A DNA stretch of 64,000 nucleotides. It comes from a bacterium SCSIO 12741. Its GTDB lineage: Bacteria; Bacteroidota; Bacteroidia; Flavobacteriales_G; Salibacteraceae. Both the position numbers and the translations under genes were made by a program. Below are positions 33,542 to 60,554 of this stretch, one piece after another. Each line of letters begins with the position of its first letter. Positions within the stretch are counted from its first letter, which is position 1. The stretch is taken from NCBI GenBank assembly GCA_024398055.1, contig CP073749.1, forward strand, positions 3,286,594 through 3,350,593, in the 5' to 3' direction. The notes beneath the pieces are model-generated. The model was given only the letters and a program-made list of their open reading frames with translations, did not search any database and was not told the origin of the DNA.

Positions 33542-34519
33542 TTGAACATGGATTCCTATTTACGGACGACTGAAAACGTATACAAAGAAGCTGCCCTAAC
33601 TCCTGATGTAGGGCTTTGCTGTACCACAACTCCCATTTGGCAACTGCCAGGTTTGGAGATTCCTAAGATTATGCAGGAAATGAATTACGGTTGCGGAAGC
33701 ACCGTCAATTCCCGGGACCTGGTCAATGAGCCTACAGTACTGTATGTTGGAGTAGGAGGAGGAATGGAGTTGTTGCAATTCAGTTATTTCAGTCGACGTA
33801 AGGGCGGTGTTATTGGTCTCGACGTAGTAGACGAAATGCTGGAAGCTTGCGAACGAAACTTTGTGGAAGCGGAGGCTCAAAACGATTGGTTCAAGAAAGA
33901 CTTCATCGATTTACGTAAAGGCAATGCCTTGGAACTTCCCATTGAAGACTCCACGGTAGATGTTGCTGCTCAGAATTGCTTGTTCAATATTTTTACTCAA
34001 GAAGATCTCAAAAAGGCCTTGGCCGAAATGTACCGGGTGCTTAAGCCTCATGGTCGTTTGGTTCTATCCGATCCGATTTGTGATCAGGAGATGCCTGAAA
34101 ACTTACAGAAGGACGAAAAGCTACGTGCCTTGTGTTTGAGTGGAGCTATGCCGCTTAAAGATTACTTGAAAATGATTACTGATGCTGGATTTGGAACCGT
34201 GGAAGTACGGGCCAAAAGACCCTACCGTATTCTTGATCCGGAGCATTACGATACTAATGAGCTGATCTACATTGAAAGTGTGGAGGTATGTGCCATTAAA
34301 GATCCAATGCCCGAAGATGGACCGTGCGTTTTTACGGGAAAAACGGCCATTTATTACGGTAATGAGGAATACTTGGATGATCACAAGGGGCATATCATGA
34401 TGCCGAATCAGCCCTTGTCGGTATGTGATAAAACGGCTGGTGCACTGGCTTCCTTAAATCGCTCTGACTTATTTATTTCCGATTCCACCTGGTTTTATGA
34501 TGGTGGTGGATGCTGCTAA
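33542..34519 (+). CDS. arsM: Arsenosugar-type arsenite S-adenosylmethionine methyltransferase
   Basis: A 325-residue class I SAM methyltransferase. The SAM-binding motif is VLYVGVGGGMELL (residues 66-78), with LDVVDEML after it and a GRLVLSDP strand later. Cysteines that could bind As(III) are C26-C27 in PDVGLCCTTTP and C51 in NYGCGSTV, and the protein ends in GGGCC (C324-C325). This layout fits the arsenosugar-pathway ArsM found in marine Bacteroidota, which methylates arsenite. The usual radical-SAM partner ArsS is not adjacent. It is a single gene with its own terminator. An ArsM-like role is likely; the substrate is not proven. Confidence 0.8.
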   Translation: MNMDSYLRTTENVYKEAALTPDVGLCCTTTPIWQLPGLEIPKIMQEMNYGCGSTVNSRDLVNEPTVLYVGVGGGMELLQFSYFSRRKGGVIGLDVVDEMLEACERNFVEAEAQNDWFKKDFIDLRKGNALELPIEDSTVDVAAQNCLFNIFTQEDLKKALAEMYRVLKPHGRLVLSDPICDQEMPENLQKDEKLRALCLSGAMPLKDYLKMITDAGFGTVEVRAKRPYRILDPEHYDTNELIYIESVEVCAIKDPMPEDGPCVFTGKTAIYYGNEEYLDDHKGHIMMPNQPLSVCDKTAGALASLNRSDLFISDSTWFYDGGGCC

Positions 34520-34605: not shown

Positions 34606-35991
34606 TTAGTCCCTGTAGATCACTATTCGGTGCACTTGACTTTGTCCGCTCCTTTCCACTCGGATTAGGTATTCACCGTTATAACAGGTTCTGGTGTCTA
34701 AGTAGTTGATAGTACTCCCAGGTTGAATGATTTTGGATTGTACCAAACGACCATCCATGCTGAATAGGGAAATCTTAATCTCTTCTTTTACTAAATTACC
34801 TAAAGCTTGAACCGCAATAAAATCGGTAGCAGGATTTGGGTAGATTAGAATTTTGTAGTCTTGGTTCGCTGCATTCTCAGTTGATGTGGTTCCACCAGAG
34901 GGATCGTAGGTGTCCACGGTTTCGCTAATAGAAACGGAGTTTTGACCGCCCATAGCTACGAAATTATCTTCTTCGACCACACCGTAGTATTCGGGGCCTA
35001 CCACATAGGGATAGGCTGAATTCCAAAATTCATCAACGGTAGTATAGTAAGCATAGGTGCCTCCGGGATATTCAGGGGTAATGGCAAATCGTCCATTGTA
35101 TTCATCCAGATCACCATTTCCGGTAAACTCATAGTCTTCTCTAAAAAAGCCAAGCGGGTAGGTGGCATCCACCACTGGGCCTGCACTTACTGACTGTCCG
35201 TTTGCATAGGTGGTACGGGTTGTAATGTTTCTCAATTCGTAGCCTGAAACCATTCTTTTAATTCCACCGGTTCCATCCGTATTGGCGTGGGCAAAAGCTC
35301 CGTATACGGGATAACCATCAAATGCATAACCGAGCAGGGGAGAGTGTTTGGTACTGTCCATCGCATAAAGGCCATCAGCAAGGTAGAGGTCACACACATT
35401 GGAAACCTGCTGAAGGTCAAGATTAAAAGCTGTTGGATTTTGATGGTGATGATAGCTTCCGCCTTCCAAGGTTCCACCAGGTCCCGGAGGTCCGCTGAAG
35501 ATGGGAGAGGGATGTCCCTTGGCACAGTCAAAGCCATCATTTTCGGCCACGATCGCATCCCGATTCCAAACGCCTTCATTGTTGTACGAATATCCATCCT
35601 TGTAATCGTAGATAGGCACTCCATTGATGAATACTCCAATGGGGCCCAAAGGTGTTTCGGTCAATGTTCCCGAGTTTTTAACCGGATTTCTTGGAATCTG
35701 AAATAACCAGTTGTTATTGGTCGCCATGGCGGGATTGCCATCTAAATAGGGACCAATTATGTAAGAGGGGATACCACTACAATTGACATAGACATTGTCG
35801 TTGGAGTAGCGTATTTTTTGCACATTGGCCTTGGCCGTATCTGAAATAGGAGTAGAGTTTCCTGATACATAATGTTGCCCCGTAATACCCGTGGTATTGA
35901 TGATCCACTGGGTTATTTCCGGGTCGGAAATTTGGCCCTGAGCCCATGAAACGAGCAAAAGAGAAAGGAGTAGAGAGAGAATGCTTTTCAT
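34606..35991 (-). CDS. YHYH-domain secreted protein with T9SS type A sorting domain
   Basis: A 461-residue exported protein. Residues 1-20 are a signal peptide (LLLSLLLVSWAQG). The central YHYH domain contains GGSYHHHQNPTAF and LLGYAFDGYPVYGAF; its clustered histidines suggest metal binding. A T9SS type A sorting domain ends the chain (IYPNPATDFIAVQ ... YNGEYLIRVERSG). It follows the MbnP-MbnH pair on the same strand after 119 bases. YHYH proteins are of unknown function; a surface copper-handling role is inferred from histidines and neighbours. Confidence 0.85.
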   Translation of the reverse strand: MKSILSLLLSLLLVSWAQGQISDPEITQWIINTTGITGQHYVSGNSTPISDTAKANVQKIRYSNDNVYVNCSGIPSYIIGPYLDGNPAMATNNNWLFQIPRNPVKNSGTLTETPLGPIGVFINGVPIYDYKDGYSYNNEGVWNRDAIVAENDGFDCAKGHPSPIFSGPPGPGGTLEGGSYHHHQNPTAFNLDLQQVSNVCDLYLADGLYAMDSTKHSPLLGYAFDGYPVYGAFAHANTDGTGGIKRMVSGYELRNITTRTTYANGQSVSAGPVVDATYPLGFFREDYEFTGNGDLDEYNGRFAITPEYPGGTYAYYTTVDEFWNSAYPYVVGPEYYGVVEEDNFVAMGGQNSVSISETVDTYDPSGGTTSTENAANQDYKILIYPNPATDFIAVQALGNLVKEEIKISLFSMDGRLVQSKIIQPGSTINYLDTRTCYNGEYLIRVERSGQSQVHRIVIYRD

Positions 35992-36110
35992 ATCCGAGTA
36001 ATTTGTTTCTGTACTATTAGACGGTATGTTTTTCGAATTCCTTCGAAGGATCTAAAAAAATAAAACAATTTCCTTAACGATCTTAAATTAAGAAGGTTGC
36101 GATGTATTAT

Positions 36111-37133
36111 TTAACGTGGGAAGGAGTGTTTTGGATTGAATAGAAACTCCTTGTCGGTAAGGGTAAGCAAAAAGACCTGTAGATCGATTCTATCATGGGA
36201 AGAAAGTGGGATTCCCTCTTGAAGTTCTGGTGAAAGGGTAGGGTGAGCTTGGATGCCTTTTGAATAATGCTTAAGCACATCATACAGGTTTTCGAAGCGT
36301 CCATCGTGCATGTAGGGATAGGAAAATTCAATGTTTCGCAGGGTGGGCACTTTGAACAATAGGGAATCAGCTGGGCTTTGGGAAATTCTCATTCGGCCCC
36401 AGTCGTTGAGTGTAGTATCCACCGGTAAGCCATTATTGCGAAACTGATGGTTGGTAAAAAGAGGTTCGGTGTGGCAATTGTTGCAGTGTTTTTGAAAGAG
36501 TTGATATCCTTTCATCTCTTGATCTGTGAAGGCAACACCACTATCTCCTCTTCTAACTTGGTCGTACTTTGAATTGGCACTGATTAAGGTGAGCTGAAAT
36601 TGGGCCAGAGCCTTAAGCAAATGTTCGCCGGTAATGCTGTCTGAACCGAAGGCTTTTTTGAACCATTGCGGATATCGCCTGGTTCCTTGCAGTTTGGTTA
36701 GTACCTGAGGTAGATCTTCGCCCATTTCATCAGGGTGAGAAATAGGAGCCAAGGCTTGTACGTCGAGGTGATTAATTGCACCATCCCACATCAACAAGTC
36801 GCTCCAGGCCAGGTTGATCAAAACGGGAGAATTGCGAATTCCAATACGACCATCAATCCCATGACTTAGGTCGTGATCTACATGGGTAAACGCCGTGAAT
36901 TGCAAATGGCAACTGCTACAGGATATAGTACTGTCTTTCGATAGGATTGGGTCATAAAAGAGTTGCCGGCCGAGTTCAATTTTTGCTGGGCTAAGATTTT
37001 GGAGGGTTGCTTCATATTTGGAATCCGGCCAACCTTTGGGTATAGGAATTTGATATCCCACCTCTCTTTTGGCCATCCAGGATAGGCAGAGCAGAACAGA
37101 GATTAGAGAACCGTATTTCAGCAAAATTTTCAA
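36111..37133 (-). CDS. Di-haem cytochrome c peroxidase, MbnH/MauG-like
   Basis: A 340-residue periplasmic di-haem c protein of the CCP/MauG superfamily. A signal peptide occupies residues 1-20. Haem motifs are C72-S-S-C-H76 and C217-N-N-C-H221. The LLMWDGAINHL segment and the late PYMHDGRF loop are characteristic of the family. It overlaps the MbnP gene by 4 bases. In the methanotroph pair MbnH oxidises a tryptophan of MbnP to kynurenine, creating a copper site. The same role is likely here by pairing. Confidence 0.85.
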   Translation of the reverse strand: MKILLKYGSLISVLLCLSWMAKREVGYQIPIPKGWPDSKYEATLQNLSPAKIELGRQLFYDPILSKDSTISCSSCHLQFTAFTHVDHDLSHGIDGRIGIRNSPVLINLAWSDLLMWDGAINHLDVQALAPISHPDEMGEDLPQVLTKLQGTRRYPQWFKKAFGSDSITGEHLLKALAQFQLTLISANSKYDQVRRGDSGVAFTDQEMKGYQLFQKHCNNCHTEPLFTNHQFRNNGLPVDTTLNDWGRMRISQSPADSLLFKVPTLRNIEFSYPYMHDGRFENLYDVLKHYSKGIQAHPTLSPELQEGIPLSSHDRIDLQVFLLTLTDKEFLFNPKHSFPR

Positions 37134-37840
37134 GGTGAAGTGCGAAAGATTTGTGAACTAATCGTGGCCAATTCACTGGCCCTTTGTCCAGGTATCATTA
37201 GTTCAGGTTCCTCCGTCAAATTCAATTGCGAAAGGAATTCATCCAGGTAAATGCCAATTTCAAGATTTTCTCCCGGTGCGCTCTTGATCGTTACCGATTG
37301 AGCAGTAGAATAGGGGGGGAGATAGCCACCTATATGGTATTGAAAACGATTTTTCCGGGTAGTACAGAGTTCACTTTTTCCTTCCAACTTAAAGTTAATG
37401 TAGCCGCTGTTCCAGGTCCAGTACATGCCCAAGGTGGGATCCAAATCACCTCCATAGGCACCGGATACGTTCGTTAAACTATCTACCCCAATTTGAAAGC
37501 GTACCTGATCATAAAACACTTGGGGAGGAAGTGATACTTTCCGGCTTAATGTGTTTGGTTTCCAGGCATCCAGCAGAAAATAGCGCGTTTCTTCCTTCCA
37601 CACGACCTTACCATTTTTTAAAAACTCCAGGCCAGATACATAGCATCGGAATTTTGACAGTTTTAAGGGCTTCTTCTGGTAGCTAAAATCGCTGTTTTTA
37701 GGGGATAGTTTCTGTCCTGCAAATTGAGGGATATAAGTCACGTTGATCTCCGATTGCGCCCAGGAATTGCCCATCGGAAGCCATACCAGAACTGCCGCAA
37801 CCAACAGAACGCTAATCTCTTGTAGCTTTTTGGTGTTCAT
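37130..37840 (-). CDS. MbnP-like copper-binding protein
   Basis: A 236-residue exported protein with a signal peptide (residues 11-29, ending SWAQ). The conserved MYWTWNSGYIN (139-149), FLLDAW and FQIGVDS segments match MbnP, the periplasmic protein modified by MbnH in methanotrophs and widespread in other bacteria. Two tryptophans sit in the central motif. There are few cysteines or histidines, in keeping with a modified-residue copper site. First gene of the mbnP-mbnH pair, with the YHYH gene beyond. Confidence 0.85.
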   Translation of the reverse strand: MNTKKLQEISVLLVAAVLVWLPMGNSWAQSEINVTYIPQFAGQKLSPKNSDFSYQKKPLKLSKFRCYVSGLEFLKNGKVVWKEETRYFLLDAWKPNTLSRKVSLPPQVFYDQVRFQIGVDSLTNVSGAYGGDLDPTLGMYWTWNSGYINFKLEGKSELCTTRKNRFQYHIGGYLPPYSTAQSVTIKSAPGENLEIGIYLDEFLSQLNLTEEPELMIPGQRASELATISSQIFRTSP

Positions 37841-46511: not shown

Positions 46512-46952
46512 TCAGGGTATATAAATGTCCTTTTCCAAGAAGTAGGGGACCTCTTGATGAGTCCATTCTACTTTTACGGTATATCTACCGCTGGAAAAGG
46601 CCGTACGGTCAAACGTCTGACGCTGATTGTTCAATTTCAAATCAAAAAGGCGATCCATGGAGGCATCATCTGCTCGATAAAACTGAACTTTTCCCTGTAT
46701 ATCCCCAGAGGTAATGGCGGCAGGCATTTCAAGAGAAACCTCCTGTGCGGTTGCCTTCACCTTCCATTGATCCTGGTAGGGATTACTGTTTTTTTTCTGA
46801 TCGATACGATTCTGATATTCAATCTCTTGCTGGTAGTAATCTTCAGCATACAAATCAGTGCTTACACTGCTAATGCTGATTACCAAATAAAGAATGAAAC
46901 ACATGAAAGCTACTATGGCAATGGTAATGCCTGTTCCCCAGTTAAGCTTCAT
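46512..46952 (-). CDS. ccoH: cbb3 oxidase assembly protein CcoH/FixH
   Basis: A 146-residue FixH-family protein with one N-terminal helix (residues 7-28) and an Ig-like periplasmic domain. The characteristic region VEWTHQEVPYFLEKDIYIP ends it. It stabilises the cbb3 complex during assembly. It overlaps ccoG by 4 bases. Confidence 0.88.
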   Translation of the reverse strand: MKLNWGTGITIAIVAFMCFILYLVISISSVSTDLYAEDYYQQEIEYQNRIDQKKNSNPYQDQWKVKATAQEVSLEMPAAITSGDIQGKVQFYRADDASMDRLFDLKLNNQRQTFDRTAFSSGRYTVKVEWTHQEVPYFLEKDIYIP

Positions 46953-48343
46953 AGTGATGGTCCTAAAAATGTTGTTTCTACTTCTTCGATCAATTCACCA
47001 TTGCCATAGATACCGAGTGTAATTGGGGTTTTGCTTCCCGTAAAATCGCTCTGACGAGCAATGATGATGAATTTCCCTTTTACTTCCGCCTGAGCGTGAA
47101 GGAATAAAGGATCACCAACAGGTTGCAATTCTCCAATTCCATCGATAATTTTTATCTCAATGGGCATGTCGTCGTTTGTTTTGTTTACTAAGGTAACATC
47201 GTACACGTTACTGTAAACTCCTTTTTCAACCTTGTTGTACAAACTTCCACGAGTTCGCAAAATGGTTGTTTCAAAATCAGAACGACCTACAATCAAGAAA
47301 CCAAGTAAGCCCAACAATGCGAATAGAACCGCAATGTAAGCCTTCATTCTTAACGTTAATTTCCAAGGTGCTTTGTCCTTAATTCCATCTTCAGATGCAT
47401 AACGAATAAGGCCTTTTTCGAGACCCACGCTTTCCATCATGTGGTCACAGGCATCCATACAGGCTGTACAGTTGATACATTCCAACTGGGTTCCATTTCG
47501 GATATCGATACCAGTAGGGCAGACGTGTACACATTGCTTACAATCGATGCAATCTCCTTTGCCCAATTCCTGGCGGTCTTCGTTTTTACGAAATCTTGCC
47601 CGGTTTTCTCCACGTGCATAGTCGTAGGCTACCACCAGGGACTTGCTATCTAATAGCACTCCTTGCAGACGTCCATAGGGACACACTACGGTACAAACCT
47701 GCTCTCTCATTTTGGAGAATACCAGGTAAAATACAGTGGTGAAGATGACAATACTGATCAAGCCCGTTATATGCTCCATCGGATTGTCGGTAACGATGTG
47801 GAAGAGCTCTACATTTCCAATAATGTAAGCCAAAAAGGTATTGGCAATCAAGAAGGAAATCGTCCAGAAAATGACGTGTTTAATCGTCTTTTTACGGATT
47901 TTTTCTGCATTCCAAGGCGCCTTTTTCAGTTTCTTTTGCTGTTTCCAGTCGCCTTCAATCCAATACTCGATCCGCCGGAAAACCATTTCCATAAAAATGG
48001 TTTGGGGACAGATCCATCCACAGAACAATCGGCCAAATACCACAGTAAATAGTGCGATAAAGATGACCATTGCGATCATGGCCAGGGCAAACAAGTGTAA
48101 GTCCTGTGGCCAGAAGATTTGCCCGAAGATGATAAACTTTCTTTCGAGCACGTTAAACATCAGGACGGGTTCCCCGCCGATGCGTAGAAAAGGTCCGGAA
48201 AATAACAAGAGCAGCAGCAGGTAGCTGAGTAGTTTTCTCTTGTCGTAGTATTTTCCGAAAGGTTTTTTAGGGAATATCCAAATCCGTTTACCCTGCTCGT
48301 CAACGGTTGCTATGGAATCCCTAAAGGATTTTTGTTCCTCCAT
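46949..48343 (-). CDS. ccoG: cbb3 oxidase accessory 4Fe-4S protein CcoG
   Basis: A 464-residue inner-membrane ferredoxin of the RdxA/CcoG type. Several helices carry CGWICPQTIF and CTVVCPYGRLQG; the soluble part carries CIDCKQCVHVCPTGID and CINCTACMDAC. A C-terminal Ig-like domain (NVYDVTLVNKTNDD) follows two further helices. CcoG reduces Cu(II) to Cu(I) for oxidase copper insertion. The ATG at 48343 is preferred to a TTG at 48364; it sits 10 bases after the ccoP stop. Confidence 0.92.
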   Translation of the reverse strand: MEEQKSFRDSIATVDEQGKRIWIFPKKPFGKYYDKRKLLSYLLLLLLFSGPFLRIGGEPVLMFNVLERKFIIFGQIFWPQDLHLFALAMIAMVIFIALFTVVFGRLFCGWICPQTIFMEMVFRRIEYWIEGDWKQQKKLKKAPWNAEKIRKKTIKHVIFWTISFLIANTFLAYIIGNVELFHIVTDNPMEHITGLISIVIFTTVFYLVFSKMREQVCTVVCPYGRLQGVLLDSKSLVVAYDYARGENRARFRKNEDRQELGKGDCIDCKQCVHVCPTGIDIRNGTQLECINCTACMDACDHMMESVGLEKGLIRYASEDGIKDKAPWKLTLRMKAYIAVLFALLGLLGFLIVGRSDFETTILRTRGSLYNKVEKGVYSNVYDVTLVNKTNDDMPIEIKIIDGIGELQPVGDPLFLHAQAEVKGKFIIIARQSDFTGSKTPITLGIYGNGELIEEVETTFLGPSL

Positions 48344-48353
48344 TAAAGTGATG

Positions 48354-49445
48354 TTATTCCTCAACCTGAGCAGTGGCGGTACTATCCGCCGCTGCTACAG
48401 GAGTTTCTTCAGCTTGTGTGCTGTCCACTGGGGCAGCTGGAGCTTCCTCTACCGGAGCCACCAAATCACCTTGCGGATCTTTCCCTTCTGGTGGTGCTAC
48501 GTATTCTAGAGACATTACGTAAGATGCTACCTGTTGCATCTGTATTGGGTTAAGCTCATCCTGCCAACTCTTCATACCGTTTTGTGCACCATACTTGATA
48601 GTGGCAAAAACGTCGTTGATCGTACCTCCGTGAATCCAGTAATCATCTGTCAAGTTAGGACCAATGTTTCCTTGTCCTTTGTCTAAGTGACAGGTTTTAC
48701 AATATTGCTGGAACAGGCTTTCACCGCTAGCCAGAGCTCCTGCATCACTGAGGTAAGTAACTGTATTCTCATCTACACTCATTGCTTGAGATTCGAGGTA
48801 GGCTGCTTTTTCAATTTCTGCTTTAAGGCTGTCTTTGGTGTATTCTACGTGTTGAAGATCACCCCATCCTACCACGTGATAGTTGAATAGGTAGATCACT
48901 GCGAATACGATAGACAAATAGAATCCGTACTTCCACCAAGGCGGCAAGTTGTTGTCCAACTCCTGGATACCGTCGTAGTCGTGATCCATAAGAATAGAAC
49001 CTTCTTCTTCCATAGAAACACGGTCGGTAAGCACTTTAGACCAGCGCTCGGAAGCCTCCTTAGATTCTTTGGCCAATTCTTCCTCAGTTTTGTCTACGTT
49101 GATCAGAGAGTTCAACATATTCCTCAAATAGTAGAGGAAATAGAGCAAAATCAAGTTGATGATAAAGGCGGCCAGAATCATCTCATTTGTTGGTACAAAA
49201 CCAGTAGCTTCGGCGGTTGCTTCAGCAGCTGGTGACATAGCCAATCCGAATGTGGGAAGAGATAGCCCAATCAAAAGCAGTAACGCATTTAGGTTACTAT
49301 TTGATTGGCGGTTAGACCGTTCTAACTTTTTCTTAAAGGCATCGCTTCGTAGCAATCCTTTGATAGCTGATCCGGTCAATACAATTAGGAACAATAGCAG
49401 GGCTGCCATTGCTACCAGAGTCCAAAATATCCATTGCTTTTCCAT
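48354..49445 (-). CDS. ccoP: cbb3 oxidase subunit III (CcoP-like c-type cytochrome)
   Basis: A 363-residue membrane-anchored cytochrome. Helices near residues 8-28 and in the 50-110 region precede another helix (about 172-190, GFYLSIVFAVIYLF). A single C-terminal c-type haem domain has C-K-T-C-H (QQYCKTCHLDKGQG), with M289-type axial ligand candidates such as GMKSWQDEL. Proteobacterial CcoP has two haems; this form has one, as in other Bacteroidota. An Ala/Pro/Glu-rich tail ends it. Electrons pass to CcoO and CcoN. Confidence 0.9.
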   Translation of the reverse strand: MEKQWIFWTLVAMAALLLFLIVLTGSAIKGLLRSDAFKKKLERSNRQSNSNLNALLLLIGLSLPTFGLAMSPAAEATAEATGFVPTNEMILAAFIINLILLYFLYYLRNMLNSLINVDKTEEELAKESKEASERWSKVLTDRVSMEEEGSILMDHDYDGIQELDNNLPPWWKYGFYLSIVFAVIYLFNYHVVGWGDLQHVEYTKDSLKAEIEKAAYLESQAMSVDENTVTYLSDAGALASGESLFQQYCKTCHLDKGQGNIGPNLTDDYWIHGGTINDVFATIKYGAQNGMKSWQDELNPIQMQQVASYVMSLEYVAPPEGKDPQGDLVAPVEEAPAAPVDSTQAEETPVAAADSTATAQVEE

Positions 49446-49466
49446 GATAATCTGCTTGTTTCTTTA

Positions 49467-49634
49467 TTAGTCGTTTAATGGATAATCGCTTATCTCTTTA
49501 ATTTTTTCCTTATTCGCTACCATCACCCAAACCAGAAGTCCGGTAAAAAACAAAACGAATATGCTCATCGATATCAAGGGAAAGATTTCAATCCCTTCGA
49601 TTCCTGTCATGTGATGTTTGATAAATTTTAGCAT
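49467..49634 (-). CDS. ccoQ: cbb3 oxidase small subunit CcoQ
   Basis: A 55-residue protein, too short for routine calling. It reads MLKFIKHHMTGIEGIEIFPL, then a transmembrane segment (ISMSIFVLFFTGLLVWVMVA) and a charged tail ending YPLND. Its place between the NO subunit and ccoP and its single helix identify it as CcoQ (FixQ). Gaps to its neighbours are 12 and 21 bases. It stabilises the oxidase complex. Confidence 0.88.
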   Translation of the reverse strand: MLKFIKHHMTGIEGIEIFPLISMSIFVLFFTGLLVWVMVANKEKIKEISDYPLND

Positions 49635-49646
49635 GATCGTTCTTTT

Positions 49647-51841
<2,195 letters not shown>

Positions 51842-51842
51842 A

Positions 51843-52076
51843 TTAGTGAGATGTTTTGGAATCGGACTCTTTTTCTCCGGTTCCATTTGAGATTACGTGA
51901 TTATTCTTAGGGTAAATATTATCTGAAGAAGGGTTCTGCTGATCGTCAAAGAGTATTCGTACAGCTGGGCTGTAATCGTCCTCGTATTGACCACTTTTGA
52001 CGGCCCAAAGAAAGGCGATCAAAAAGCCGCCTGCTACTAGGAGGCTGACTAAAATTAAAAGAAAGATGACACTCAT
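51843..52076 (-). CDS. ccoS: cbb3 oxidase assembly protein CcoS
   Basis: A 77-residue protein with one helix (residues 3-25) and the CcoS signature FLWAVKSGQYEDDYSPAVRIL in the cytoplasmic tail. It is needed for insertion of haem and copper into cbb3. It begins the ccoS-NO-Q-P-G-H-TauE-hemN run. Confidence 0.92.
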   Translation of the reverse strand: MSVIFLLILVSLLVAGGFLIAFLWAVKSGQYEDDYSPAVRILFDDQQNPSSDNIYPKNNHVISNGTGEKESDSKTSH

Positions 52077-52271
52077 TGGTCTTCTATTTGCGTTCCCAAT
52101 TTACAACAAAGAGAAAGTATAAACAACTGTTAAAAAAGGTATGCAGTCATACAAAATTCTGATGTTTGTCAGTTTTTTAAAATCGGCTCGAAAGCCCTGA
52201 TTTTTCAGTATCCTTTGGCGTGTAAGGGTTTGCGGAATTGACACGATTTCTATTCATAGCTTTTAAAATAT
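52077..52271. other. 195-base upstream region of the cco operon
   Basis: Holds the presumed promoter of ccoS-hemN. An imperfect FNR-like site CTGAT-GTTT-GTCAG lies at 52159-52172, with TGA-N6-TCA spacing. No good TAnnTTTG match is evident on the minus strand. Confidence 0.5.
52159..52172. promoter_or_regulatory. FNR-like palindrome upstream of cco operon
   Basis: CTGATGTTTGTCAG matches the TTGAT-N4-ATCAA core at 7 of 10 positions and has the right half-site spacing. It lies 83 bases before ccoS. Confidence 0.4.
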
Positions 52272-54653
52272 TTAGGTGATTTTTGGGGCGTAATAATTAC
52301 TTCCGATTGTGGCAAAAACCACAATGGATACAGAACTAATCGGCATAAGTAGGGCAGCGATCACCGGAGAGAGGGTTCCGCTTACTGCAAACGACAATCC
52401 AACGATGTTATACAAGAAGGATATGACGAAACCAATTTTTATCAATACAAGGTTTTTTCGAGCGAATTCCAGAATTCTTGGAAGCCGGTTAAAATTACCC
52501 GCAGCAAATAGGGCATCACATGCCGGGGAGAACTGATGAACCTGGTCTGAAATGGCCACCCCAACATCACTTTGCTTGAGCGCTCCGGCATCGTTGAGTC
52601 CATCACCAATCATCATAACTTCTTTCTGATCTTTTTGTAAAGTCTGAATGAATTCCAGCTTGTTCATGGGTGATTGATCAAAATACATGGCTTCCCAGCC
52701 AAATTTTTGCCTCAATTCCTCTTTTTGATGGTCCTTATCGCCAGAAAGTAAATAGAGCTCGAAATGGGCCTTTAAAATGCTTAAAAGATCTTTGAGTCCT
52801 TTTCGGTATTGTTGCTTGAGCTGAAAACACCCTTTTACCTCACCATTGATCTCCAAATGAACCTCGGAGGTCAGGGTTGCTTCAGGTTGAGAAACTCCAA
52901 TAAATTCAGCTGAACCCATTCGAATGTGATCAGTCCCAATACGACCATCAATTCCGCGGCCCGGGATTTCCTCAAATTTGACCGTAGCCAGTTCCTGCGC
53001 ACCATTTAGGTGTTTGTGAATGGCAGTACTCAACGGGTGAATCGATTGACTCACCAGGGTGTAAATGGCATTTTGTTCGGTATCATTAAGTGGCTGACCC
53101 TGGTATTTGACTTGCATTTGGTTGTTGAGGGTAATGGTTCCGGTTTTATCGAAAACGATGTCGGTAATGCGAGCCATTTTCTCAATGACTGCCGCATTTT
53201 TCAAATAGAGTCCACGAGACCCTAAGAGACGCATGGAGTTTCCGAGGGTAAAGGGCACACACAAAGCCAAGGCACAAGGGCATGCTACGATAAGTACAGC
53301 TGTTATGGCATTCCACATTACGCTGGGATCATTCAGGTACCAATAAATACCGGTCACCGCAGTTATTCCCAATACAACAACCGTAAAATAGCGGCTCACT
53401 TGATCCGAAATTTGCTTGAGGTCTTTTGCTCCGCTCTGACCTTTAAAGGCGTCCTGATTCCACAGCTGAGTCAAATAGCTGTTGTCTACTTCCCGGGTAA
53501 GTTCCACTTGAATCTTACCACTGGTTTGACGACCACCGGCATAAAGCAATTCACCTTCATTCTTTTCAATCAAATCGGATTCTCCGGTTACGAAGCTGTA
53601 ATCGATCCAAGCCTCTCCTTGAAGCAGCACTCCGTCAGCGGGAATAAGCTCCTGATTGCGCAACTCAATCCGGTCGCCAGGTTTAAGCTCTTCGATCTTG
53701 GTCGGAATTCGTTCTTCGCCCTTAACCTTGTGCACGGCAATGGGGAAGTAGGATTTAAAGTCTCTATCAAAGGACAGGGATTGATAGGTTTTTTGCTGGT
53801 ACCATTTTCCGATGAGGAGAAAGAAGACCAGCCCGGCAAGAGAGTCGAAGTAACCGCTGCCTGTTGCCGTAAAAATTTCGTAGCTGCTTCTTAGAAACAG
53901 AGTGATCATTCCCAGAGCAATGGGAACATCCATATTGATGAAGCGTTGACGAATGCCCTTCCAGGCGCTAATCAAATAACCCTTGCCTGAGTAGAGCAGG
54001 ACGGGAAAGGATAGTACCCATTGAATGCGGCCAAAAAATGATCGGAAGCTTTCAAAACTGGTATCTATTCCCAGGTATTCTGGAAAAGCCAGCAACATGA
54101 TGTTACCAAAACAGAAGCCAGCGATACCAATTTGGTAAATAATGGTTTTGTCAGAAGAAGAACGTGATTCGGATTTACCTTTTTCGGTTCGTCCGCTGTT
54201 TCTTAAATCAGGTTCATAACCAATGGAAGCAAGAAGTTCCATGACCTGACGAAGAGAAATTTCCTGGTTTTTGAAAATGACATCGAGTCGGCGCCTTGGG
54301 AAATTTACTGACGCTGACTGGATTCCTGGCTGCAATCGATTTAGATTTTCCAATAGCCAAATACAGGAGCTACAGTGAATTTGCGGTACCATAAAGGATA
54401 CACGGGTCACCTGATGGTCTTCGTATTGGATAAAGCGAGAAGCCATGGACGGATCATCCAGAAAGGCAAATTGATCTTGATTTACCGTACCCTTCAATTT
54501 CAGCCCAGGAGCATTCTCCATGAGGTAGTAATCCTCCAATTGATTCTCATGAAGAATTTGGTAAACCGTTTGACAACCTTGACAACAGAAGTACTTGTCT
54601 TCTAATTGAAGGCTTTTGTCAGGACATTCATCACCGCAATGCGCACAATTCAT
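52272..54653 (-). CDS. ccoI: Copper-translocating P1B-type ATPase CcoI
   Basis: A 793-residue heavy-metal P-type ATPase of the FixI/CcoI kind. The N-terminus has a cysteine-rich zinc-like motif (CAHCGDEC ... CCQGC) and a degenerate HMA domain with CSSC (HCSSCIWLLENL). Transmembrane segments surround the CPC metal site in ACPCALALCVPF. The phosphorylation loop is DKTGT, and GDGLNDAGAL closes the hinge. It exports or delivers Cu(I) for cbb3 assembly. A short frame overlaps its start in an ATGA. Confidence 0.93.
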   Translation of the reverse strand: MNCAHCGDECPDKSLQLEDKYFCCQGCQTVYQILHENQLEDYYLMENAPGLKLKGTVNQDQFAFLDDPSMASRFIQYEDHQVTRVSFMVPQIHCSSCIWLLENLNRLQPGIQSASVNFPRRRLDVIFKNQEISLRQVMELLASIGYEPDLRNSGRTEKGKSESRSSSDKTIIYQIGIAGFCFGNIMLLAFPEYLGIDTSFESFRSFFGRIQWVLSFPVLLYSGKGYLISAWKGIRQRFINMDVPIALGMITLFLRSSYEIFTATGSGYFDSLAGLVFFLLIGKWYQQKTYQSLSFDRDFKSYFPIAVHKVKGEERIPTKIEELKPGDRIELRNQELIPADGVLLQGEAWIDYSFVTGESDLIEKNEGELLYAGGRQTSGKIQVELTREVDNSYLTQLWNQDAFKGQSGAKDLKQISDQVSRYFTVVVLGITAVTGIYWYLNDPSVMWNAITAVLIVACPCALALCVPFTLGNSMRLLGSRGLYLKNAAVIEKMARITDIVFDKTGTITLNNQMQVKYQGQPLNDTEQNAIYTLVSQSIHPLSTAIHKHLNGAQELATVKFEEIPGRGIDGRIGTDHIRMGSAEFIGVSQPEATLTSEVHLEINGEVKGCFQLKQQYRKGLKDLLSILKAHFELYLLSGDKDHQKEELRQKFGWEAMYFDQSPMNKLEFIQTLQKDQKEVMMIGDGLNDAGALKQSDVGVAISDQVHQFSPACDALFAAGNFNRLPRILEFARKNLVLIKIGFVISFLYNIVGLSFAVSGTLSPVIAALLMPISSVSIVVFATIGSNYYAPKIT

Positions 54654-58640: not shown

Positions 58641-59369
58641 TTAGAATCTAATGGTAAGGAATAGGGCTACCGGTAAATTCAAGGTGAGGTTAGTCCCAAA
58701 ATTCGAGTCGTTGCTTTCCGAGTTTATTTCGGATTGACTTCCTGAAAAATCGGTTCTGAAAATTTGGGTTTCTACCGAGCTTTTCTCTTCGGTATACCAG
58801 AAGTAATAGGTGGCTTCCGTTCCAATTTTTATGTTTTTGGAGATGTAATAGGCAAAGTTAAATTGTGGTCCACCGCCAAATCCATCCACCGAAGCTTTGG
58901 TTTTGGTTATGGTTGAATCCTGTCCTCCAAACTGATTAATCGTAGTTCGGTTAAGTTCTGAGTTTGCGGCACGCATTTGGGTAGCAGCATCAACGCCAAC
59001 ACCGGCTTCAAAGCGTTTTCCAATTTGAAACTTTTTGCAATAGCCCAATCTCAAATCAATTCGATTGTTGATCGATTCTATTCCATCGCTTCCTTTGTTG
59101 GTGGATAAATTGGCACCCAAGCCTAAGCCAAACTCATTGTTGCTTCCATTGAACCTGACGGAGTATTTCAAAAGGTAGGGATTGTTGAACGCTGGGGTAG
59201 GGCCGAAACTAAAGATTTGTTGAATTAGCTGATTGGCCTGAATACTGGCGAAGTGGCTGATTTGTTTATCCGGATTGATGTTGTAAGCTGGCTTAGGTTC
59301 GGCTTTTTGGGCATAGGCGATACTCAGGCCGAATAGGGCCAGTGAGCACAGGGCTAATTTTCTAATCAT
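58641..59369 (-). CDS. Outer-membrane beta-barrel protein of unknown function
   Basis: A 242-residue exported protein. A signal peptide covers residues 1-20 (LALFGLSIAYAQ). The remainder has strands with alternating pattern (GLGLGANLSTN, FEAGVGVDAAT, NIKIGTEATYYFWY) and ends in LNLPVALFLTIRF, typical of a small outer-membrane barrel. It begins 10 bases after the di-haem peroxidase gene, so the pair is likely co-expressed. No known family. Confidence 0.7.
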   Translation of the reverse strand: MIRKLALCSLALFGLSIAYAQKAEPKPAYNINPDKQISHFASIQANQLIQQIFSFGPTPAFNNPYLLKYSVRFNGSNNEFGLGLGANLSTNKGSDGIESINNRIDLRLGYCKKFQIGKRFEAGVGVDAATQMRAANSELNRTTINQFGGQDSTITKTKASVDGFGGGPQFNFAYYISKNIKIGTEATYYFWYTEEKSSVETQIFRTDFSGSQSEINSESNDSNFGTNLTLNLPVALFLTIRF

Positions 59370-59379
59370 GGTATAGGGA

Positions 59380-60482
59380 TTAAGGTGTTACAAAAGGATC
59401 GGAAAACCGAGGGTCTGTTGGAAATACTGGATCGGTTAGGGTGCCCAGAAAATCGATCAAACGATCTCGATCATAGGGAGAAATATCAAACCGGTTTACG
59501 GCTCCATTCGGTCCGCGTAATCTGGGGTCAAGGTTGGGGTTGTCATTCACGCCATGGGCATAATGGTCCAATACTTCTTCCAGGGATTGAAATCTTCCAT
59601 CGTGCATGTAAGGTGCGGTAAGCATTACATTGCGAAGGTTCGGAATTTTGAAAACACCACGGTCTTCTTCCTGTCCGGTTACGGCTTGGCGTCCAGCATC
59701 TCCATGGTCAGCCAGTCCAATATTGGCCATATTTGGTCCTGTAGCAGTAGGTCCTGGTTGATTGTTTTCCAGGGGGCGGGAAGGAAGAAATCCACGGAGT
59801 AGCCAGCAGGGTTAAACAAATTGTGGCAGTTTCCGCAATTGTACTTTCCAAAAAACAAACGCATGCCCTCTTGTTCATCCGGTGATAATCCAATAAATCC
59901 CATTTGGTCAAACTTGCTTCCGGTAGATTCTAATTGGGCTAGAAATGCCGCAATGGCTTGGGCAATTCTTTCGGAAGAAATCAAGTCACTTTCAAAGGCC
60001 CTGCGAAACAGGTCCTGATAATACGGTTTGCTTCGAATGATTTGAATTAATTCCTTTTCCGAAATGAGACCCATCTCCACGTGATTAAAAATAGGATCGA
60101 GGGCCAAATCTTCCAGGCTTGTTCTGCGACCATCCCAAAATAGGATTTCGCTATTTCTTAGGTTTTGAATAGGTGGTGTATTACGTTCGCCTTTTACGCG
60201 TTCAAATCCAGTACTTACCGTCCGAAAGTCAGAAAATGCCAAGGATTGGGAGTGGCACGATCCACAGGAAATAGCACCATTTCGAGAGAGGGCTTTGTCG
60301 TAGAACAATACTCGTCCCAGATATTCCACGGGGCTTACTCGAAATGTGTTTTCGACCAATGGAACGGATGATTCTGTTACTTCTGCAGTTGGTGTAGCTT
60401 CTTCCTTTTGACAAGAAAATAGGGTAATGAACGCCACGGCAATAAGAGCAGTGGTTGTGGGGAAGGTGTTAGTTAATTTCAT
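59380..60482 (-). CDS. Di-haem cytochrome c peroxidase lipoprotein (frameshifted)
   Basis: About 367 residues after repair. The start MKLTNTFPTTTALIAVAFIT ends in a lipobox (LFSC), so it is a lipoprotein. Haem motifs are SCGSCH and NCGNCH, and the late PYMHDGRF is typical of CCP/MauG proteins. The first frame runs off at PAPWKTINQD; adding one base in the G run at 59772-59776 (+ strand) restores PAPLENNQPGPTATGPNMAN and continues to 59380. A TTG start at 60494 is rejected in favour of the ATG at 60482. It is the second MauG-like protein in the window and sits inside the carotenoid cluster. Confidence 0.85.
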
Positions 60483-60554
60483 GGCGGACAGCAATTTATC
60501 CTTTAAAGTTAGTTTTTTATCCGAAAGAGAAAAAACTCTTTTTCCAGCCCTTAT

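Follow-up and report, generated by a model that had tools for sequence, protein, structure and literature searches.

MbnH, a di-haem enzyme of the MauG superfamily, reportedly turns a tryptophan of its partner protein MbnP into kynurenine. One known pair is that of Methylosinus trichosporium OB3b, and pairs far beyond the producers of methanobactin were described in 2013 (PMC3621798). In MopE-SACCP of Methylococcus capsulatus and CorA-CorB of Methylomicrobium album, the gene for a copper protein whose kynurenine derives from tryptophan likewise lies beside one for a MauG-like di-haem protein, and there is a surface component; the copper site of CorA and MopE consists of two histidines, a water molecule and the kynurenine (PMC3912023). 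Here we describe three adjacent genes, referred to as the trio, in a 64,000-nucleotide stretch (the window) of the genome of the Bacteroidota bacterium SCSIO 12741 (contig CP073749.1, positions 3,286,594 to 3,350,593). They encode an MbnP-like protein, an MbnH-like protein and a YHYH-domain protein with a sorting tail of the type IX secretion system (T9SS). The trio is almost certainly a real, conserved unit. We also favour, with moderate confidence, the view that its three products work together in handling copper outside the cytoplasm, with the YHYH protein as the copper partner. A sequence-only reading of the window had stressed that the module lies outside methanotrophs, which for the pair is not new in view of the 2013 description; relative to the literature found, the new element is the link to YHYH.

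All three open reading frames are intact on the minus strand, in the order MbnP, MbnH, YHYH, and each matches the expected Pfam family, as the sequence-only reading had it. The features are as follows.

37130..37840, minus strand: MbnP-like protein, 236 residues (PF20243, E = 1.4e-35), in the trio clade of the MbnP tree; N-terminal signal, no T9SS tail
37394..37426, minus strand: MYWTWNSGYIN motif, MbnP residues 139-149; M139, W141 and W143 kept in 68 of 68 MbnPs
37334..37336, minus strand: H169 of MbnP, candidate copper ligand, sole histidine of the protein, kept in 68 of 68
37130..37133, minus strand: TTGA, the 4-nucleotide overlap of the MbnP stop and the MbnH start
36111..37133, minus strand: MbnH-like di-haem enzyme, 340 residues, CCP_MauG family (PF03150, E = 8e-53), TTG start
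36906..36920, minus strand: first CxxCH haem motif of MbnH, C72-H76, kept in 72 of 72
36471..36485, minus strand: second CxxCH haem motif of MbnH, C217-H221, kept in 74 of 74
36264..36266, minus strand: Y290 of MbnH, axial-ligand position of the six-coordinate haem by alignment with 6e1c and peroxidases, kept in 73 of 73
34606..35991, minus strand: YHYH-domain protein, 461 residues, signal peptide (judged by eye), T9SS tail (PF14240, E = 1e-48; PF18962, E = 1.2e-11)
35023..35703, minus strand: YHYH domain, residues 97-323 (Pfam match)
34936..35934, minus strand: region of YHYH modelled with AlphaFold2, residues 20-352
35434..35454, minus strand: YHHHQNP motif, YHYH residues 180-186, centre of a predicted metal site that also includes D155 and H160
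34618..34845, minus strand: T9SS C-terminal sorting domain, YHYH residues 383-458 (PF18962), present in 94 of 94 YHYH proteins of the linked type

The trio shares with the OB3b pair and the pairs of GenProp0940 the gene order, the combination of PF20243 with CCP_MauG, the WxW tryptophans and the tyrosine axial ligand. It differs from them in scoring below the NCBI equivalog cut-offs, in having no methanobactin operon, and in its linkage to YHYH and often to genes for an extracytoplasmic function (ECF) sigma factor. No MbnB, MbnC or precursor peptide gene lies beside the trio in the window. The genome's single PF05114 (MbnB-family) gene is at C1:2738097, beside a cysteine-rich EGKCG-repeat protein, and membership in a methanobactin operon was rejected on this ground. 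That other cluster (locus L253, 4813-6969; genome C1 ~2737300-2739470) consists of an MbnB/TglH-family gene, a gene of ~275 codons and the EGKCG-repeat gene, and presumably is a copper peptide operon of the bufferin type.

In order to determine whether the linkage extends beyond this genome, a check that the sequence-only reading had suggested, we used samples of different breadth. A Pfam survey of 42 genomes of the same order found MbnP in 41 and YHYH in 19. Among 17 YHYH genes of the full-length type, 12 lay within ~3 kb of an MbnP gene with MbnH between them; in a thirteenth case (G011) the arrangement is split by contig ends, with the tail of MbnH before YHYH on one contig and an MbnP-MbnH pair running off another. 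The window genome itself has six MbnP genes and one YHYH gene, which adjoins an MbnP. Searching a YHYH alignment against 84,980 species genomes gave 80 loci, nearly all in named Bacteroidota. These loci were picked through YHYH, a selection that does not affect the Pfam counts at the level of the order. MbnP and MbnH stood on the same strand beside YHYH in 56 of the 68 loci with enough flanking sequence, and the linked loci span at least four classes (Flavobacteriia, Chitinophagia, Saprospiria and Sphingobacteriia). Of 296 genomes sampled evenly across the phylum, 34 had YHYH and 78 had MbnP, and the two genes were adjacent in several families unrelated to one another. In a tree of 78 MbnPs, all 51 YHYH-linked proteins fell into one clade (Shimodaira-Hasegawa-like approximate likelihood ratio test 96), so linkage to YHYH characterises a single MbnP clade. 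The linkage label changed 2 times on this tree, compared with 22.6 times when shuffled, and the sole unlinked row inside the clade is cut by a contig end. Chance adjacency is ruled out by the order-level counts, the 56 of 68 loci and the MbnP tree. At two loci a bacterial rhodopsin gene stands between MbnH and YHYH (L100, 5107-5838; L140, 3003-3731).

We also compared the sequences of MbnP and MbnH with those of characterised proteins. MbnP reaches the PF20243 gathering score easily (123 bits, cut-off 27). The sequence-only reading had pointed to a conserved tryptophan in MYWTWNSGYIN, and this motif holds two that are invariant among the relatives; the window MbnP has both the WxW tryptophans and an adjoining MbnH gene. 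Neither of the two conditions that this reading had set for its own refutation, loss of that tryptophan or a failure of YHYH to accompany MbnP-MbnH, applies. MbnH carries the CCP_MauG domain and two CxxCH motifs, and a profile of trio MbnHs aligns over its full length with the MbnH crystal structure 6e1c (E = 3.4e-51). Y290 aligns with a tyrosine of 6e1c, where the peroxidases 1iqc and 3o5c have methionine; a Tyr-His haem is required for the bis-Fe(IV) state (PMC6405878). Both haem motifs, Y290, W116 and E136 are kept in 73-74 of 74 relatives. The start of MbnH overlaps the stop of MbnP or lies no more than 20 nucleotides from it in 56 of 56 relatives. A bis-Fe(IV) intermediate and substrate oxidation are predicted for this MbnH, W141 or W143 is the candidate kynurenine precursor, and formation of kynurenine in the window MbnP appears probable. 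MauG, which matures tryptophan tryptophylquinone, shares with MbnH two c-type haems, the tyrosine axial ligand, the bridging tryptophan and the superfamily, but differs in substrate and product; the window MbnH scores 184 of 444 bits against TIGR03791.

The presumed copper site of MbnP must differ from that of MopE and CorA. Because H169 is the only histidine of the window protein, a two-histidine site is impossible, and no other histidine is conserved among the relatives. Searches of the PDB with the single sequence or a profile found no chain similar to MbnP, and membership in the MopE/CorA group was rejected. M139 is a further candidate ligand, and we infer a His-Met-kynurenine site suited to Cu(I). 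A search of plasmids for MbnP gave no match. The same genome holds other MbnP systems. One (L080, 3196-8824; C1 ~745200-750820) comprises genes for a T9SS multicopper oxidase, a 101-residue protein and an MbnP that bears a T9SS tail, and then two MbnH-like genes in a row. Another (L081, 5914-9739; C1 ~5084900-5088740) has three tandem MbnP genes of 286-293 codons, lipoprotein-like by eye, with one MbnH-like gene beside them. A degenerate paralogue (L082, 5270-6139) lacks the WxW tryptophans, the conserved histidine and an adjoining MbnH.

The YHYH protein has the PF14240 domain with its Y-H-x-H motif, and its T9SS tail was matched by PF18962 and TIGR04183. The sequence-only reading had called it histidine-rich, which it is not (8 histidines in 461 residues). 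Nine residues (D155, H160, Y180, H181, H183, D225, D296, Y313 and Y315) were kept in 109 of 109 diverse members. The long type adds H182, C156 and C200, usually with H298 and C303, where the window protein has Y298 and A303. An AlphaFold2 model of residues 20-352 from the 109-sequence alignment had a predicted local distance difference test score (pLDDT) of 90.7 and a predicted template modelling score of 0.90; an alignment of 14 close relatives had given a pLDDT of 42 and was replaced. A sequence search of the PDB with the domain found no match, and a fold search with the model matched nothing usable, although absence of a match is not proof of a new fold; the viral matches in the fold search were YHYH proteins themselves. 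The same domain in cyanophages and jumbo phages has the histidine triad and aspartate, and is often fused to tail proteins; the long type differs from it in the added cysteines and histidine, the signal peptide, the T9SS tail and the copper-gene operon.

For the phage proteins the triad and aspartate have been predicted to bind zinc, with a hydrolase role (PMC7824862), and this was the sole mechanistic proposal for YHYH that we found; the literature searched contained no tested function for these domains. By extension, the YHYH of the trio could be a secreted zinc-dependent hydrolase that is merely co-regulated with MbnP-MbnH in a metal or oxidative stress response. The invariance of D155, H160, H181 and H183 fits this idea, as do sulfatase neighbours in 8 of 89 loci. 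However, no hydrolase fold in the PDB matches the model, and both types of Bacteroidota YHYH adjoin copper genes, namely MbnP-MbnH, SCO1 and multicopper oxidase. We consider the hydrolase explanation unlikely.

The association with SCO1 comes from a short type of YHYH, ~255 residues without the T9SS tail. Inspection of 20 larger neighbourhoods of this type revealed the order YHYH, MORN-repeat lipoprotein, SCO1/SenC in 17 (Pfam-confirmed for four examples), and the operon spans many Bacteroidota families (L223-L242, e.g. L227, 4388-6447). YHYH is thus tied twice to copper genes, to MbnP-MbnH and, separately, to SCO1. At one YHYH-MORN-SCO1 locus (L229) an ECF gene and a PF13801 sensor lie upstream, and in one genome (G003) two YHYH genes follow a set of ECF, anti-sigma, sensor and EF-hand genes. 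A literature search, mostly outside subscription journals, found nothing linking YHYH with MbnP or SCO1. A bolder possibility, to which we give less than an even chance, is that YHYH represents a novel class of copper proteins or copper enzymes outside the cytoplasm, with a fold absent from the PDB, that would be fed by interchangeable modules (SCO1/SenC in short-type operons, kynurenine-bearing MbnP in the T9SS type), both at times under ECF/metal-sensor control.

Regulatory genes were the most frequent neighbours of the trio. In 25 of the 50 loci that could be tested, genes for an ECF sigma factor and a sensor of ~155 residues lay upstream of MbnP and on its strand, with a one-helix anti-sigma-like protein of ~90 residues between them where recognisable. 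Unbiased all-against-all clustering of neighbours across 89 loci returned the following families beyond the trio in at least 10 loci, and no others: sensor (33), ECF (32), anti-sigma (14), redoxin (13) and T9SS multicopper oxidase (10). The sigma domains are clear, and the trio sensors match PF13801 weakly (two sensors); the sensor of one short-YHYH locus scores above the gathering threshold of this family. Among 34 sensors, H65 is kept in 33, H116 in 31 and C124 in 34. The sensor cysteine was rejected as a mark of MbnP loci only; some cassettes of the cysteine type are not beside MbnP. The cassette resembles cnrYXH-type regulation in all three of its parts: the ECF sigma factor, the small anti-sigma-like protein of one helix, and the helical sensor in the periplasm with its metal-ligand residues. 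It differs in that the sensor ligands are His, His and Cys, and it is not beside the window trio. Together with the multicopper oxidase neighbours and the YHYH-SCO1 operons, the cassette supports the copper role that the sequence-only reading had assigned to the trio, and we regard copper handling by the operon as likely.

The direction of copper flow is less certain. Systems of the cnrYXH type respond to metal excess, which favours detoxification of excess copper or peroxide, with MbnP as a copper sink and MbnH also removing peroxide. This explanation differs from the one we prefer in the direction and purpose of copper handling only. The redoxin and multicopper oxidase neighbours fit it, as does the copper-responsive ECF factor CorE, which controls genes for a multicopper oxidase and a copper ATPase (PMC10141476). 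In contrast, MopE and CorA, characterised relatives by analogy, are induced by copper scarcity (PMC3912023), and the conserved neighbours in the 89 loci included no family that was recognised as an efflux ATPase or as CusCBA. We hold detoxification to be a serious possibility, somewhat short of an even chance.

Several observations weigh against a copper-handling unit with YHYH as partner. The window trio has no adjoining ECF/sensor cassette, and the genome's sole sensor homologue, at C1:483390, is away from the trio and lacks the cysteine. Since two relatives have a trio without the cassette and a cysteine-type cassette elsewhere in the genome, regulation in trans is possible. ECF/sensor cassettes also occur without MbnP and so are not copper-specific proof. 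MbnP and MbnH score below the NCBIfam equivalog cut-offs (26 of 140 bits for TIGR04052 and 211 of 363 bits for TIGR04039), and are consequently members of the superfamilies rather than of the curated NCBI families. Twelve of the 68 testable YHYH loci lack an adjoining MbnP-MbnH pair. The core metal site of YHYH is common to the phage proteins with the proposed zinc hydrolase role (PMC7824862). Finally, no copper genes are evident beside YHYH genes outside Bacteroidota (seven plasmid records), whose neighbours are PEBP, HupE or two-component genes instead, and the copper link may therefore be particular to Bacteroidota. A different arrangement outside that phylum is seen in Loktanella (L245, 3217-6639), where two YHYH genes enclose a pair of PEBP-family genes.

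The mechanism that we propose for copper handling by the trio is as follows. MbnH would act like MauG, probably with H2O2, and convert W141 or W143 of MbnP in the periplasm into kynurenine. Copper, most likely as Cu(I), would then probably be held by MbnP with H169, M139 and the kynurenine as ligands, perhaps joined by M215. The type IX system would carry YHYH to the surface or into the medium, where it would receive, bind or use copper, as a copper store or a copper enzyme, at a site formed by D155, H160, H181 and H183. Where the cassette is present, in about half of the relatives, the operon would be controlled by the ECF sigma factor, the one-helix anti-sigma-like protein and a periplasmic sensor resembling CnrX or Metal_resist, with its His, His and Cys ligands. 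Because this cassette lies upstream, expression of the operon should follow extracytoplasmic metal. The T9SS tail is on all 94 YHYH proteins of the linked type but on 0 of 68 YHYH-linked MbnPs, which probably places YHYH at the surface and MbnP in the periplasm. Cell-surface copper scavenging, as the sequence-only reading envisaged, is not supported by this distribution.

It could also be that MbnH modifies YHYH itself as a second tryptophan or tyrosine substrate, with MbnP as a parallel one. W142 of YHYH is invariant in 82 of 82 long-type rows, and at two loci (L145, 6865-9350; L150, 6913-9350) MbnH directly precedes YHYH without an adjoining MbnP. These two loci, however, come from sister genomes. 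MbnH also has partners in MbnP clades that lack YHYH, and YHYH exits the periplasm through T9SS. Such a modification seems quite improbable.

Besides Bacteroidota, cyanophages and diatoms also carry YHYH domains. The two operon types lead to a hypothesis on their metal that is specific and can be tested, with the ECF cassette as a regulatory read-out. Our results suggest that Bacteroidota of fresh and marine waters also use MauG-type tryptophan modification for copper, in operons under regulation, and not just the methanotrophs in which this chemistry was elucidated.

The window also contains cco genes and a copper-type P-ATPase gene (46949-54653), ~9-17 kb from the trio, and the sequence-only reading had suggested that the trio might feed the cbb3 oxidase encoded there. 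Delivery to this oxidase is highly improbable: cco genes lie within ~8 kb in just 1 of 89 trio neighbourhoods, and the genome has its own SCO1 elsewhere. Supply of cbb3 as a conserved link was accordingly rejected. Within the cco genes, 49647-51886 encodes a CcoN-FixO fusion whose N-terminal part apparently lies in a separate open reading frame (51527-51886), an apparent frameshift that could stem from faulty sequencing. A second MauG-like di-haem gene is split into two overlapping frames (59380-60494, another apparent frameshift) and is followed by a gene for a 242-residue protein of no Pfam family (58641-59369); a similar pair follows YHYH at another locus (L092, 9542-11367). Convergent with the YHYH gene, at 33542-34519, is a gene for ArsM, an arsenite methyltransferase of the arsenosugar type (NF038099, 575 bits).

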